IMG/VR virus record: IMGVR_UViG_3300032057_000003
Coordinates: 1 to 30,997 of that record
DNA from: a virus
Strand: one strand, 5' to 3'
Length of the DNA: 30,997 nucleotides
In this document: piece by piece, positions 5,941 to 30,997 of the stretch
How positions within the stretch are numbered: position 1 is the first letter of the stretch
How the letters are laid out: every line of letters begins with the position of its first letter
The notes under the pieces: model-generated
Databases searched by the model: none
Told to the model about the DNA's origin: nothing
The model's input: only the letters and a program-made list of their open reading frames with translations
Translations under genes and position numbers: made by a program

Positions 5941-6136
5941 GCAATAAAATCTTTGATGCCGAAAGGCGTTGATCACGGTGGAAGCCCCGTGGGTGTCGTA
6001 GCCCAACTTATGGGTGCAAAAATCTTTGATGCCGAAAGGCGTTGATCACCGCTCCATCCGTTGCAGGTTCAGCACTGTCTCGCGTGCAAAAATCTTTGAT
6101 GCCGAAAGGCGTTGATCACTCAAAGGCGTTGATTAC
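5941..6136 (+). CRISPR. Mini-CRISPR array: 3 repeats, 2 spacers, no cas genes
   Basis: A 36-bp repeat occurs at 5941-5976, 6014-6049 and 6084-6119. Copies 2 and 3 are identical; copy 1 differs only in its first five bases. The spacers are unrelated to each other: 37 bp (5977-6013) and 34 bp (6050-6083). A truncated copy of the repeat's last 16 bases, with two changes, follows at 6121-6136. In + strand RNA each repeat folds as GAUGCC-GAAA-GGCGUU, a stem with a GNRA loop whose G-U pairs exist only in this orientation. This agrees with the upstream promoter. No cas gene is in the window, so host Cas proteins would be needed. Confidence 0.8.
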
Positions 6137-6274: not shown

Positions 6275-6309
6275 TTCCGACGTTGCTAAAAAAAAAGTCG
6301 GAACTTTTT
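6275..6309 (+). terminator. Possible terminator, overlapping the next promoter's upstream element
   Basis: TTCCGAC (6275-6281) pairs with GTCGGAA (6297-6303), then CTTTTT. It could end the mini-array transcript. The right arm and A-tract are also the conserved upstream part of the promoter cassette for the gene at 6387, so the function is ambiguous. Confidence 0.4.
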
Positions 6310-6378
6310 GCTTGACACGCCGTTTAGGAAGGTGTAAGTTTGAACCAAATCACGGGCGGCGGCCCTAAAACGCAGGAG
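6288..6378 (+). promoter_or_regulatory. Cassette promoter and hairpin leader, copy a
   Basis: An A-tract and GTCGGAACTTT lead into TTGACA (6312-6317), 17 bp, and TAAGTT (6335-6340). The leader then carries the hairpin GGGC-GGCG-GCCC (6354-6365) and TAAAACGCAGGAG, the Shine-Dalgarno for ATG 6387. Three further copies of this cassette precede leftward genes at 29933, 30301 and 30676. Confidence 0.85.
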
Positions 6379-6386
6379 CAGTCGCA

Positions 6387-6926
6387 ATGAGCGAAATCTT
6401 TTTCCGAGGTACCCAAGCTTTCACTTTTACCCCTTATGCCGAAGAAGACGTGCACGCTTTTGAGGCGTATCGTACATTTTGGCATCTGAACGAGCTCCAG
6501 GATGCTGGCGAGCCGGCGTTTACCTATGCGCAGGCCGTTGTCGTCTCAAGAGTAGCGCGTTGGGTGTTCCAAGGTGCGTCCTACGCTTCTGTTATTGTTC
6601 ACCCGGACGACATAGAGTGGATTCTTTGTTTTCCTGTGGTTCGGACCTGTGGTTCGGAGTACTACTCTCTGCAAACAGAGGAAATTCACCCCGATGGAGA
6701 GGATGTGTTCTTCTTCTTCTCTGGCTCCACCCCAACTGGGACGCCCATTCGGGCTGTCCCTTACTTAGACGACTTGAAATTCCTGTCTCCGCGCGACGGC
6801 GTTAAGTTAGTGCTTGTCCGCGCCAAAGATTGGGAATGGGATGAGGGGCGGAACACCGTCCTGATTCAGCCACAGGACGTGGCTGAAATAGAAATCGTGC
6901 TTGACTCAGAGGTGCGCGTGTTCTAA
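6387..6926 (+). CDS. Orphan protein of unknown function with its own promoter
   Basis: A 179-residue acidic protein, not recognised. It is rich in aromatic residues (EAYRTFWHLNELQ; DVFFFFSGS) and seems soluble, with no signal peptide or membrane segment. The start is fixed by GCAGGAG eight bases before the ATG. It has its own promoter cassette and terminator, unlike the operons on each side, so it behaves as an independent transcription unit. The shared cassette suggests co-expression with the small leftward genes at the right end of the window, perhaps early host-takeover or defence functions; this is inference only. Confidence 0.75.
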   Translation: MSEIFFRGTQAFTFTPYAEEDVHAFEAYRTFWHLNELQDAGEPAFTYAQAVVVSRVARWVFQGASYASVIVHPDDIEWILCFPVVRTCGSEYYSLQTEEIHPDGEDVFFFFSGSTPTGTPIRAVPYLDDLKFLSPRDGVKLVLVRAKDWEWDEGRNTVLIQPQDVAEIEIVLDSEVRVF

Positions 6927-27508: not shown

Positions 27509-28290
27509 GAGTCAACCCTCGGCAGAGGTGGAATAGAGGAACGCCAGCAAGGCATTACTAGCTGGCGGATGGTAAAGGGTGATTGTACAACCGGGGACAA
27601 TTCTATGGCGTTGGAAATGAGACGCCTTTCATAAGGAGGAACAATCCGAATTTGCACATCCCCCGTCGGAAGTGCTTGGGCGGCATCAAGCAAATAATTG
27701 CAGTCAGCGATGCCGTCCATTGAGTAGTCAGAACGCGCTTCGATTCTGACCGGCGAAATGGTATTTGCATTTTCGGCTGCCACGGCTATAAAGCCGGGGC
27801 GAACCCAAAAGAAAACACTCCGGTTTTTGCGCGTGGTTTGTTTTTTGGCGCTCTGCAGCGCCTCAATGAACTGTTTTCTCTCGCAGTGCAGAGTGATCGA
27901 ACCCTCTATCGGCGGAAAAACAGCAAAATAGTTTGGATAGCGTGCCTGAATCACAGGCACAGAGAAACCTGCCTTTTCGTGCTGGATGACCGCCTCGGTA
28001 TCGTTGGCGGCAATCTTGATGACGGTGCCTAAAGCACGGGGGAGTTTCAGTTCGGAAAGCTCTCTAGCGCTTAGGATGGCAGTCATCGGCTCCCGGCAAT
28101 CGTACCCGTCGTCTGTCTCGAACAAAGCCAGGCGATAGCCGTCTGTGGCAACGACGCGAAACTTTGTTGGGGAAGCGTCCAAAAGGACGCCAGAAAACGC
28201 CGGGCGACGCGGGTCGAAGTCCCGTGACGCGGCAAATGCGGTGGATTTCAGCGCACGGTGAAAAATATCTGCTTTGACAGTTATTTGCAT
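27505..28290 (-). CDS. DnaN-like sliding clamp lacking the N-terminal domain
   Basis: A 261-residue protein that aligns by pattern with domains 2 and 3 of the DNA polymerase III beta clamp. Domain 2 shows PAFSGVLLDASPTKFRVVATDGYRLAL (written in part: FSGVLL...VATDGYRLAL). Domain 3 starts near YPNYFAVFPP and runs through QFIEALQSAKKQ, CNYLLDAAQAL and IRQLVMP. Domain 1 (about 125 residues) is absent, and GGAGGTGAG before ATG 28290 supports this as the true start. Host clamps are near 370 residues. The usual VMPMRL end is replaced by VMPCWRSS plus ten residues. It probably tethers a polymerase to phage DNA. Confidence 0.85.
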   Translation of the reverse strand: MQITVKADIFHRALKSTAFAASRDFDPRRPAFSGVLLDASPTKFRVVATDGYRLALFETDDGYDCREPMTAILSARELSELKLPRALGTVIKIAANDTEAVIQHEKAGFSVPVIQARYPNYFAVFPPIEGSITLHCERKQFIEALQSAKKQTTRKNRSVFFWVRPGFIAVAAENANTISPVRIEARSDYSMDGIADCNYLLDAAQALPTGDVQIRIVPPYERRLISNAIELSPVVQSPFTIRQLVMPCWRSSIPPLPRVDS

Positions 28291-28703
28291 GGCTCACCTC
28301 CGAAGAATACATCCAGTTGAATGCCGTCGGGGCAAAAAGTCACATCCAGCACACAGAACAGGTCGGAGCGCGGATGCCGTGTCCACTTGGCGTACTCAGA
28401 CGCAAAATTCGTGCCGGGGGGCTTAGCGTCATAAATCCACGGCTGTGACTTAGGAAAGTCGGTCGCCCATACGAAAAAGTCGGACGGTAGCTGTATCTGC
28501 CACTCGTCCGCACCGCAGGGTAAGAAGAACGCAATCGTAAACGAGACGTTCCCGTCGTACCGCCACGCAACTTCTTCGCTGTCATAGTTTTTCAGGCAAA
28601 CGTCTCGCTTGCTTGCCGCAAGCAGGGCTTCGGCAAGCGGATGAATAGGGAGCCCGAAGTGCTGTTGCCACTTGGCGATAAACTCTTGATGCGATATTTC
28701 CAT
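28281..28703 (-). CDS. Protein of unknown function upstream of the clamp
   Basis: A 140-residue protein. AAAGGAG precedes ATG 28703; an in-frame start at 28736 would lie in the terminator of the previous gene and is rejected. It is rich in aromatic and acidic residues (QEFIAKWQQHFGLPIHPLAE; YAKWTRHPRSDLFCVLDV), soluble, without a known domain. Its end overlaps the clamp start by 10 bp, so the two are co-translated. It does not resemble clamp domain 1. Confidence 0.65.
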   Translation of the reverse strand: MEISHQEFIAKWQQHFGLPIHPLAEALLAASKRDVCLKNYDSEEVAWRYDGNVSFTIAFFLPCGADEWQIQLPSDFFVWATDFPKSQPWIYDAKPPGTNFASEYAKWTRHPRSDLFCVLDVTFCPDGIQLDVFFGGEPCK

Positions 28704-28722
28704 TTTTTCTTCTCCTTTCGAC

Positions 28723-28753
28723 AAAAAAAGCGCCATACTCGAAAGTATGGCGC
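28723..28753 (-). terminator. Terminator between leftward genes
   Basis: Read leftward, a perfect 10-bp stem GCGCCATACT/AGTATGGCGC with a TTCG loop, then seven T residues. It ends the message of the gene at 28767-29186 just before the Shine-Dalgarno of the next gene, so the gene pair 28281-28703/clamp relies on read-through or an unseen promoter. Confidence 0.9.
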
Positions 28754-28766
28754 GGGGTTGTTGTGA

Positions 28767-29186
28767 CTACGGCAGCAGTAGCTCTGCCGCCGCGAAGTCA
28801 TCGGCGTGGGCATCGCGTGCCTCGCCGGGGGCAATGAACTTGACGTTGAAGCGTTGGCGCCGCTTATAGCCGACGCCAAATGAAGCCGCCGCTCCTGGGC
28901 GGACGTAACCAACCCAGATGTCGTAGTGATTGCCGGCCATTTCGTAGACGGCTTTCACGCCGTCCTGCGGGTTGACGCGGCGCAGGCAGCCTTTGATTGC
29001 CCACGCCAGCCAGCCGTCGGCTGACTGGGAGGGGTCAAAGGTAAGGATTGTCTCGCCGGCGGCTTTCACTTGCCGCCAGACCCCCAACGCCGGGAAGATA
29101 GTGTCTTCCGGCGCCCGTACGCGCGTAATCGGCGCGTAGGGCGAGTTGCTCGAAGTCCAAACGATGAAATCAATGAGTTCAGCCAT
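28767..29186 (-). CDS. Protein of unknown function
   Basis: A 139-residue protein beginning MAELIDFIVWTSSNSPYAPI, with AAAGGAG before ATG 29186. The middle (GVWRQVKAAGETILTFDPSQ) and the tail (ARDAHADDFAAAELLLP) give no recognised family. No membrane segment or signal is seen. It lies third from the left in the leftward block and is followed by a strong terminator. Confidence 0.65.
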   Translation of the reverse strand: MAELIDFIVWTSSNSPYAPITRVRAPEDTIFPALGVWRQVKAAGETILTFDPSQSADGWLAWAIKGCLRRVNPQDGVKAVYEMAGNHYDIWVGYVRPGAAASFGVGYKRRQRFNVKFIAPGEARDAHADDFAAAELLLP

Positions 29187-29209
29187 TTTCTTTTCTCCTT
29201 TCTGGGTAA

Positions 29210-29235
29210 GGCGCCACGCCCGGAGACGTAGCGCC
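29210..29235 (-). repeat. Intercistronic GGCGC hairpin, copy 1
   Basis: In minus-strand RNA, GGCGCUACG (29235-29227) pairs with CGUGGCGCC (29218-29210), then UUACCC and the next Shine-Dalgarno. It has no T run. Similar hairpins ending GCGCC-TTA occur at 29595-29622 and 30044-30074. Confidence 0.6.
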
Positions 29236-29242
29236 GGTGTTA

Positions 29243-29569
29243 TCAGACGAATCGTTGCAGTCGCGTAACTGCAACGATTTGGCCGTCTTGGCGAATGGCC
29301 GTTGGCCCCGTATCCGGGGCAACAACGTCCGGGCGGCGGACGTGCTGGGCGACCAGAGACGACACGATATAGACCTTGCCTTCTTCCGGGTCAGGCAGGC
29401 CAATCACCTGTCCGAACCGGGTAGTGACGACAGGAACGCCGGCAAAGCCGGTGTCAATCTCTTGGGCTGAATCCAGCCGGGCGATGCGCCCGGACACCGG
29501 GATGGTGATCGGCTGCGCGCCGGACGGCTGAATGGTGATGGGGTGTGGGGTAAGATTGACGAGTTCCAT
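29243..29569 (-). CDS. Conserved phage protein of the LTPHxIxI type
   Basis: A 108-residue protein beginning ELVNLTPHPITI, with VIGLPDPEEGKVYIVSSLVA and RPDVVAPDTGPTAIR. This pattern (NLTPH..., LPxPxxGxxYIVSSLVA, RxDVVAPDTGP) recurs in small proteins of many actinobacterial and other phages and prophages, from general recollection, with no known role. AAAGGAGAG precedes ATG 29569. Confidence 0.75.
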   Translation of the reverse strand: MELVNLTPHPITIQPSGAQPITIPVSGRIARLDSAQEIDTGFAGVPVVTTRFGQVIGLPDPEEGKVYIVSSLVAQHVRRPDVVAPDTGPTAIRQDGQIVAVTRLQRFV

Positions 29570-29594
29570 TTTTCTCTCCTTTCTTTTTTGGTAA

Positions 29595-29622
29595 GGCGCG
29601 CCAGACGAGTGCCTGACGCGCC
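29595..29622 (-). repeat. Intercistronic GGCGC hairpin, copy 2
   Basis: In minus-strand RNA GGCGCGUCAG (29622-29613) pairs with CUGGCGCGCC (29604-29595), including one G-U pair, then TTACC and an A-rich stretch. It follows the stop of the gene at 29634 by 12 bp. Confidence 0.65.
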
Positions 29623-29633
29623 GGGTTGGAGGT

Positions 29634-29933
29634 CTAGACCAGCTTGATTCTTACCGGCTGGCCGTCTTCGGTTACCCACACCCGCGGGCAACCGGGGATT
29701 GCCTTCACAATTGCGTCTGTCACGCCGTATTGGGCGACGAACCGGCGGACTGCGTTACGTGACGCTGCGTAGCGGTCGCCGTATTCACGGGCGCGTCCCT
29801 GCAACTCCGCGCCGGACAGAACGCCAGGAACGTGCCCACGGCACAGAACGTGAAGCTGATAGCTACCAAACCGGGCAGGAACTTCAGAGGCCGGAATTTC
29901 AATCGTTTTCAGCGTTGTCGTCATCGTCGTCAT
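29634..29933 (-). CDS. Small protein under cassette promoter b
   Basis: A 99-residue protein, Thr-rich at the start (MTTMTTTLKTIEI), then SYQLHVLCRGHVPGVLSGAEL and AVRRFVAQYGVTDAIVKAIPG. No family recognised; the C-terminal part could bind nucleic acid but this is not shown. ATG 29933 is seven bases after GCAGGAG of the cassette leader; an ATG at 29938 is out of frame. The genes to the left probably share its promoter. Confidence 0.7.
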   Translation of the reverse strand: MTTMTTTLKTIEIPASEVPARFGSYQLHVLCRGHVPGVLSGAELQGRAREYGDRYAASRNAVRRFVAQYGVTDAIVKAIPGCPRVWVTEDGQPVRIKLV

Positions 29934-29949
29934 TGCATTGCTCCTGCGT

Positions 29950-30032
29950 TTTAGGCCCGCCGGCCATTGAGTTGATTTGAACTTACACCTTCATGAACGT
30001 TTTGTCAAGGGAAAAGTTCCGGTTTTTTTCTT
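29950..30032 (-). promoter_or_regulatory. Cassette promoter and hairpin leader, copy b
   Basis: Read leftward: A-tract, CCGGAACTTTTCCC, TTGACA (30008-30003), 17 bp, TAAGTT (29985-29980), hairpin GGCC-GGCG-GGCC (29965-29954), then TAAAACGCAGGAG. It drives the gene starting at 29933. Confidence 0.87.
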
Positions 30033-30043
30033 TTTTTTTCTAA

Positions 30044-30074
30044 GGCGCGTCCGGCGGAACATACCGGACGCGCC
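30044..30074 (-). repeat. Intercistronic GGCGC hairpin, copy 3
   Basis: A perfect 11-bp inverted repeat, GGCGCGTCCGG (30044-30054) and CCGGACGCGCC (30064-30074). It lies 8 bp past the stop of the gene at 30083 and is followed leftward by TTAG and the A-tract of cassette b. With no T run it is not a standard terminator. Confidence 0.7.
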
Positions 30075-30082
30075 GTGACAGG

Positions 30083-30301
30083 TTATTCAGTGCGAGATTT
30101 CAGGTCGTCTATGAGTTCCGAGATACGTTGGCGATCCATCCCGGATAGCCAGTCCACGACCCGCCCTGACCGCTCGCGCATCTTGGCGCCGAGCGCCTTA
30201 TGTTCGGACGACATCCAGTCTGTACGAAACCCAGCCCGGCGCATCAAGGCGAGGGCATAAGAAACCTGCTTCTCGGTCGCCATCGGGATATTGTTTCTCA
30301 T
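30083..30301 (-). CDS. Small protein under cassette promoter c
   Basis: A 72-residue helical protein: MATEKQVSYALALMRRAGFRTDWMSSEHKALG (partly shown as EKQVSYALALMRRAGF), then RVVDWLSGMDRQRISELIDDLK. The pattern of a TxKQxxYAxxLxxxAGF helix followed by DWLSxM resembles small phage proteins of unknown role. ATG 30301 is eight bases after the cassette Shine-Dalgarno; an internal ATG seven codons later lacks one. Confidence 0.7.
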   Translation of the reverse strand: MRNNIPMATEKQVSYALALMRRAGFRTDWMSSEHKALGAKMRERSGRVVDWLSGMDRQRISELIDDLKSRTE

Positions 30302-30318
30302 TGCACTGTCTCCTGCGT

Positions 30319-30400
30319 TTTAGGCCCGCCGGCCGTTGTTTGTTTTGTTTCTACACTTCTCTATACGCTTTGTCAAGGGGAAAGTTCCGATTTTTTTTTT
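30319..30400 (-). promoter_or_regulatory. Cassette promoter and hairpin leader, copy c
   Basis: Read leftward: A10, TCGGAACTTTCCCC, TTGACA (30376-30371), 17 bp, TAGAAA (30353-30348), hairpin GGCC-GGCG-GGCC (30334-30323), TAAAACGCAGGAG. The -10 is the most divergent of the four copies. Confidence 0.85.
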
Positions 30401-30420
30401 TCGGAACTTTCCCCTTGACA
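30371..30420. repeat. 20-bp perfect inverted repeat containing the -35 of cassette c
   Basis: 30371-30390 (TGTCAAGGGGAAAGTTCCGA) is the exact reverse complement of 30401-30420, separated by ten T residues. One arm is the -35 and upstream element of cassette c; the other lies 4 bp after the stop of the gene at 30425. The right arm's TTGACA faces rightward but has no -10. Confidence 0.85.
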
Positions 30421-30424
30421 GGGG

Positions 30425-30676
30425 CTACGGACGGGCTGCTCGTACCTTGACAACCCGGAGGTTGTCCCGGCTGAGGAACTCCCACCCGTATTTCTCGAAG
30501 TGGCGCTGGTTGAATGGATGCTCCAAGTTTGCCTCAACCACTACTAGGTAGCGCGCTCCACGACGCCACAGAATTTCTCCGGCGCGTAGGGCACGCTCCT
30601 GGGTGGCGTAAAACTGAACGTACTCAGGAAGATACCGCGTGTACTCCCGGACTGGAACATAAGCCCGTACCTTCAT
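30425..30676 (-). CDS. Small protein under cassette promoter d
   Basis: An 83-residue basic protein: MKVRAYVPVREYTRYLPEYV, a helix (YATQERALRAGEILWRRGA), a strand (RYLVVVEANLEH) and NLRVVKVRAARP. The alternating pattern suggests a small alpha/beta fold. Not recognised. ATG 30676 follows the cassette Shine-Dalgarno by seven bases, and an inverted repeat follows the stop by 4 bp. Confidence 0.7.
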   Translation of the reverse strand: MKVRAYVPVREYTRYLPEYVQFYATQERALRAGEILWRRGARYLVVVEANLEHPFNQRHFEKYGWEFLSRDNLRVVKVRAARP

Positions 30677-30692
30677 TGCTTGTCTCCTGCGT

Positions 30693-30772
30693 TTTAGGCC
30701 CGCCGGCCATTGATTGATTCAACCTTACACCTTCATGAACGTTCTGTCAAGAAAAAAGTTTCAAGTTTTTTT
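30693..30772 (-). promoter_or_regulatory. Cassette promoter and hairpin leader, copy d
   Basis: Read leftward: A-tract, CTTGAAACTTTTTTC, TTGACA (30750-30745), 17 bp, TAAGGT (30727-30722), hairpin GGCC-GGCG-GGCC (30708-30697), TAAAACGCAGGAG. The spacer is almost identical to that of copy b (CGTTCATGAAGGTG shared). Confidence 0.87.
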
Positions 30773-30791
30773 CTAAGGCGCGTCAAGAGCT

Positions 30792-30822
30792 AAAAAAAGC
30801 GCCACACCCGAAGGCGTGACGC
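30792..30822 (-). terminator. Terminator of the right-edge gene
   Basis: Read leftward, GCGTCACGCC and GGTGTGGCGC pair over 10 positions (two G-U) around a TTCG loop, followed by seven T residues. Same design as the terminator at 28723-28753. Confidence 0.9.
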
Positions 30823-30842
30823 AAGTTAGGCAGACAACGTTT

Positions 30843-30997
30843 TCACACGCGCGGAACGTGCGGGAGAATACGAACGGGGGCTTTTACGCCGTTTCCAAAC
30901 TGAAGCGTCAGCCAGGTTCCTGGTTTCGCATAGCCAACAAACAAATTAGCATCGAACACGACTGGTTCTATTCCATCTTCTGGCAGACGCCAGAGGA
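30843..30997 (-). CDS. C-terminal end of a leftward gene, cut by the window edge
   Basis: The minus strand is open from the edge to a TGA at 30843-30845, giving the last 50 residues (ending LQFGNGVKAPVRILPHVPRV). The strong terminator 20 bp further on supports a real gene. The fragment looks beta-rich; no family can be named. Confidence 0.6.
   Translation of the reverse strand, partial: LWRLPEDGIEPVVFDANLFVGYAKPGTWLTLQFGNGVKAPVRILPHVPRV

Follow-up and report, generated by a model that had tools for sequence, protein, structure and literature searches.

The window, the whole 30,997-b IMG/VR virus record analysed here, has one and the same promoter and leader before four of its genes, and raises the question of what the small hairpin in that leader is for. 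Our analysis bears out the four-copy cassette that an earlier note had described: the promoter, the 12-nt hairpin and the tail TAAAACGCAGGAG are in place before each of the four genes, and shuffled sequences contain none. In particular, the 25-nt hairpin-plus-tail pattern GG[GC]CGGCGG[GC]CCTAAAACGCAGGAG occurs exactly four times in the window (0 expected from 100 shuffles), with hairpin starts at 6354 on the plus strand and at 30708, 30334 and 29965 on the minus strand; a model search of the whole window found no fifth copy. Upstream of the hairpins lie TTGACA, 17 nt ending in GTG, and a −10 box reading TAAGTT, TAAGGT, TAGAAA and TAAGTT in copies 1 to 4. These are the parts of a σ70 promoter (TTGACA, 16–18 nt, −10 hexamer), all four copies having TTGACA without mismatch at a 17-nt spacing, and poor −10 boxes; a consensus promoter scan of positions 28200–30997 listed none of the three copies located there.

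Copy 1, on the plus strand, comprises a σ70-type promoter (6312..6340; TTGACA at 6312–6317, TAAGTT at 6335–6340) with an A-tract and a GGAACTTT element directly upstream, the hairpin GGGC-GGCG-GCCC (6354..6365, supported also by covariation), the tail (6366..6378; A-rich linker, CG and Shine-Dalgarno sequence), and a 179-aa gene (6387..6926) with no PHROGs or Pfam match. The other three copies, on the minus strand, all have the hairpin GGCC-GGCG-GGCC: copy 2 has its promoter at 30722..30750, hairpin at 30697..30708, tail at 30684..30696, and an 83-aa gene at 30425..30676 (MKVRAYVP...); copy 3 has its promoter at 30348..30376, hairpin at 30323..30334, tail at 30310..30322, and a 72-aa gene at 30083..30301 (MRNNIPMATEKQ..., with a weak match to phrog_987); and copy 4 has its promoter at 29980..30008, hairpin at 29954..29965, tail at 29941..29953, and a 99-aa gene at 29634..29933. 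The A-tract and GGAACTTT element that the note had included in the module are present, with the correction that in copy 3 they belong to a perfect 20-bp inverted repeat (arms 30371–30390 and 30401–30420, separated by a 10-nt A-tract), one arm of which takes in the −35 box. A terminator-like hairpin with a seven-T (T7) tail (30799..30822, minus strand) lies directly upstream of copy 2 and separates transcription units, and an 11-bp inverted repeat, a possible terminator (30044..30074, minus strand), lies between the copy 3 gene and copy 4. Just upstream of copy 1, positions 5941–6119 hold a CRISPR mini-array in a phage: a 36-nt repeat present three times with spacers of 34–37 nt, resembling CRISPR-DR33 (RF01343) at 30–34 bits, under the gathering score of 39. 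Searches with CRISPR repeat sequences pointed to no host.

The four stems differ by a compensatory swap, as had been claimed: GGGC/GCCC in copy 1 and GGCC/GGCC in the other three, a G-C to C-G change at the third pair, with the loop GGCG the same in all. Pattern scans revealed about a dozen and a half viral contigs in which promoter, leader and gene families are those of the window. The stem of the 6387 gene family is GGGC in the window, L006, L008 and L010, and AGCC/GGCT in homologues from L016, L058, L075, L111, L114 and L147, so that two pairs differ and both are compensated; the stem of the MRNNIPMATEKQ family is GGCC in the window and L012, and GGGC in L011 and L014. The promoter and leader of L012:2980 and L014:1462 are alike except for one base, and their stems differ by a compensated swap. 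Whole leaders are shared by unrelated genes (L011:5951 and L012:1736; L005:4209 and L014:737), indicating that the cassette is exchanged between genes. The promoters of these relatives include two types with a symmetric, operator-like repeat between −35 and −10, CACCCGC...GCGGGTG or CACCCAC...GTGGGTG (L005:4209, L014:737, L012:2980 and L014:1462).

The hairpin is a selected RNA structure. Uncompensated stem breaks in related phages, the observation that the earlier note had named as speaking against such selection, were looked for in the close relatives and none was found, and the claim is strongly supported by changes on both sides at three of the four pairs. Across relatives and unrelated phage contigs the stem reads GGCC, GGGC, AGCC, AACC, GAAC, AGTC, CGCC, GATC and others, and pairing is kept. 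Among 43 distinct leaders, 95.3% of stem cells are paired, there are 43 double-sided changes, and the covariation score is 0.639 versus 0.163 when shuffled (reached in 0 of 500 shuffles; slid partners, at most 0.162), shuffle tests here being inflated by related sequences in the set. An earlier set of 25 leaders gave 97.6% paired cells, double-sided changes at three of four pairs, and a score of 0.633 versus 0.179. The patterns by which most members came to light fix the C-G closure, the loop CG and AAACG, so part of the constancy of these bases comes from the search itself; scaffold genes picked by homology, described below, provide an independent check. Folding energies of single leaders are not clearly below those of shuffles (z-scores −1.7 to 0.1); we accordingly reject energy-based folding as proof of structure, the evidence being covariation and not stability. 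For copy 1 (6354–6389) the minimum-energy fold is an alternative that covers the Shine-Dalgarno sequence; the other copies differ.

The conserved parts are NNNC-GNCG-GNNN, two bases, AAACG and then, usually, a Shine-Dalgarno sequence. All four window copies have the covarying 4-bp stem, C-G closing pair and GNCG loop by which we would define the family, an exception to the closing pair being U-A in phage TM4. They also have the two bases, AAACG, and a start codon about 31 nt from the stem start (32–33 nt in the window copies). In nearly all of 66 leaders the start codon lies 27–35 nt past the stem start, and AAACG stays even where the Shine-Dalgarno sequence moves away (L360, L362, L363). In a GACG-loop scan with three stem pairs left free, full pairing was seen at 23 of the 32 hits that precede an ORF with an ATG start, versus 2 of 35 other hits. 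Between the two functions that the note had suggested, a translational regulator's site and an mRNA stabiliser, this constant position by the ribosome-binding site leans towards a part in initiating translation.

A scan fixing only loop and tail revealed the element in an unrelated 50.7-kb contig, with stems AACC/GGTT and GAAC/GTTC, the latter preceding a RadC gene (L200). Further scans added an AGTC/GACT stem lying between genes with the promoter absent (L211, L216, L220), a CGCC/GGCG stem (L210), three-pair stems (L214, L218) and a GACG loop (L251), and a model search added further copies in the same unrelated phages. Across phages the element is accompanied by several promoter types, and unrelated phages hold the hairpin inside operons without a promoter; the promoter is thus dispensable for the element. 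The promoter part is specific to the lineage; the RNA part is found widely among phages. An all-against-all comparison revealed no protein common to all carrier phages. Pattern searches of 198 and 299 bacterial genomes, from two phyla, gave 0 and 1 matches, the one lacking the stem; 20 promoter-plus-tail matches in genome contigs, none with the hairpin, were taken as chance. Five contigs (L224, L233, L240, L243, L250) carry a different leader, with a longer hairpin (GTAGTGG...CCACTAC type) followed by approximately AAACATAATAAACGCAGGAG.

Unexpectedly, the GACG-loop form, for which a scan gave hits in 76 contigs, lies mostly upstream of head-scaffolding protein genes. Nearly all proteins downstream of GACG-loop hairpins resemble head scaffolds, and 9 of 10 sampled matched PHROGs head-scaffold families, of which several different ones are represented. 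Among annotated phages, those with the element directly before their scaffold gene are Bacillus phage phi18-2, Mycobacterium phage Phrank, Mycobacteroides phage 8UZL, Arthrobacter phage BaileyBlu, and Streptococcus phages Javan59 and Javan570 (loop GCCG). In one contig (G015), the element precedes a scaffold-like gene and also two small genes, which links its two uses. Six contigs (L289, L293, L298, L304, L325, L349) have tandem GACG hairpins before one scaffold-like gene, GGCC-GACG-GGCC and then GATC-GACG-GATC.

A motif-blind sample of 15 scaffold genes, chosen by protein homology alone (P22 by accession), revealed three classes: genes with the strict form (6 of 15: KLEB27-1, Unity, Tripp, Lietuvens, MRSA107 and Phistory; loops GACG, UACGCG or UACCG), genes with a looser GACG hairpin, assigned by eye (3 of 15: JacoRen57, ReT1v-2 and TM4), and genes without the element (6 of 15: P22, Emalyn, Yarn, Survivors, PMBT6 and ctl617). 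Control starts from the same phages had the element in 0 of 19 cases, and the shuffle rate was 4%. A hairpin listed by the scan for ctl617 was taken as chance, its loop and tail being different. The window's own scaffold gene also lacks the element, indicating that the element is not required for scaffold expression. The proposal of a phage-specific regulon of small early genes stands in one part, in that several small genes of this lineage do have one promoter-leader module in common, and is too narrow in the other: many unrelated phages have the hairpin but not this promoter, most often before a late structural gene, that of the scaffold.

The loop CG could pair with the CG of AAACG, making a small H-type pseudoknot a possible candidate. 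In the 43 leaders two loop-tail pairs are invariant, which is partly fixed by the search patterns, and a third can form in 14 of 43. A second helix of 3 bp is unsupported: position 20 is mostly G in the GACG-loop scan, where A-U pairing predicts U. Many scaffold leaders contain a second structure upstream of the GNCG hairpin, with a GNC/GNC stem, an A-rich linker TTAAAC, and a tail complementary to the loop (CGAAA/TTTCG, CGATA/TATCG, CGTT/AACG, CGTA/TACG). Its loops fit their own tails better than those of others (3.3 versus 2.3 pairs; permutation p = 0.002, uncorrected for related sequences). It is itself a candidate H-type pseudoknot (L361, L366–L370, L294, L301, L303, L331, L342, L355), and the small hairpin has its parts in this order as well, so that a minimal pseudoknot is plausible for it too.

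We infer an action on translation, a host-factor partner, and activation as the effect. The best explanation, to which we would give about an even chance, is an element that acts in cis on the initiation of translation and is recognised by the host ribosome or by some other conserved factor of the host. Each copy in the window would be a self-contained expression module, with a σ70 promoter and a short 5′ leader bearing the conserved RNA element, NNNC-GNCG-GNNN-N2-AAACG, which would act in cis from just upstream of the Shine-Dalgarno sequence. The stem, about 19–33 nt upstream of the start codon, would lie just where the 30S footprint ends on its upstream side, and may there hold the A-rich linker and Shine-Dalgarno sequence open, dock on the ribosome or on such a host factor, or do both, with a high or timed translation rate as the outcome. 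In the lineage of the window, the element would have been fused to a single type of promoter and duplicated in front of several small genes. The RNA is constant before divergent scaffolds, RadC and small genes, which argues that it is matched to a conserved partner and not to the product. Counted against this explanation are single-leader folds close to those of shuffles, the alternative fold of copy 1, and the scaffold genes that lack the element.

An effect on mRNA stability would leave the same sequence signature as an effect on translation, and we consider it unlikely, though worth weighing, that the element is a stabiliser or processing barrier, the hairpin and a ribosome at the adjacent Shine-Dalgarno sequence blocking 5′ decay or marking a boundary of cleavage, which would let the mRNA downstream (for scaffold and capsid, or for the small genes) last longer than the remainder. 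The window stem begins about 7 nt past the predicted transcript start, and the position in operons is where scaffold and capsid expression must exceed that of upstream genes, both of which fit; but a simple barrier has to be stable and has no need of a set loop, a C-G closing pair or AAACG, and stems with AU pairs, for example GAAC/GTTC, have only marginal stability (−3.7 kcal/mol).

The position beside the Shine-Dalgarno sequence would fit an operator for a trans-acting repressor, either the scaffold protein bound to its own message or a phage protein that regulates the small genes, and the P22 scaffold is known from earlier studies to limit its own synthesis post-transcriptionally. P22 itself, however, lacks the element; the downstream proteins fall into several PHROGs scaffold families, or are of other kinds, whereas the RNA is constant; and no regulator gene is common to all carriers, which together make this alternative distinctly improbable. 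A DNA-level element, the palindrome being a transcription-regulator site or a by-product of promoter duplication, is already disfavoured and very improbable, since, although promoter and leader are duplicated and swapped together between genes, the stem varies freely with pairing retained, the loop and tail are asymmetric and in one orientation relative to the gene, and the element is present without the promoter.

The finding is real and larger than first noted. Tentatively, tailed phages of several bacterial phyla may share a GNCG hairpin with an AAACG tail, perhaps a minimal pseudoknot, that gates ribosome access and sets scaffold-to-capsid stoichiometry, and that some lineages carry as a portable promoter-leader cassette for other genes. 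A covarying RNA that phages of Firmicutes, Actinobacteria and uncultured hosts have in common, mostly ahead of the scaffold gene, would amount to a general, unnamed expression device; it points to an unrecognised phage way of controlling translation, offers a handle on the open question of how phages fix the amounts of scaffold and capsid made from one operon, and provides a compact, portable translation element testable in standard reporters.

Comparison with Rfam 15 at gathering thresholds revealed no match to the hairpin leaders in the window, the relatives, the L200 leader or ten scaffold-leader loci, and the literature searched gave no report of the tail sequence, these phage leader hairpins or the scaffold leaders. 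The copy before RadC resembles radC RNA (RF01754) in being a leader upstream of a radC-type gene; membership was rejected, as RF01754 is a 149-position model of other sequence and structure, with no mutual match. In cluster K mycobacteriophages, Start-Associated Sequences (SAS; 13-bp GGGATAGGAGCCC at the start codon, described for that cluster) occur at the translation starts of several non-structural genes, about half of them preceded by inverted repeats, and a role in translation initiation has been suggested (PMC3203893). The extended form (ESAS) consists of 17-bp imperfect inverted repeats upstream of SAS, with variable spacers and arms that differ between subclusters (PMC3203893). The present element is like SAS in being a short conserved sequence at several translation starts within one phage group, and unlike both in that SAS and ESAS lack the GNCG loop and the AAACG tail. 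Membership was rejected for SAS, the window leaders being TAAAACGCAGGAG and SAS GGGATAGGAGCCC, and for ESAS, a 4-bp stem with a 4-nt loop standing against 17-bp arms.

Small structured leaders adjoining the Shine-Dalgarno sequence are represented by phage T4 gene 32 and the preQ1-I pseudoknots. The element shares with these a short stem, an A-rich linker, and a possible loop-pairing segment just before the Shine-Dalgarno sequence; it differs in having only a tetraloop, a second helix of two certain pairs without covariation support, and no Rfam sequence match. Unnamed in Rfam 15 and in the literature searched, it is an element that we would place among the structured translation-initiation leaders.
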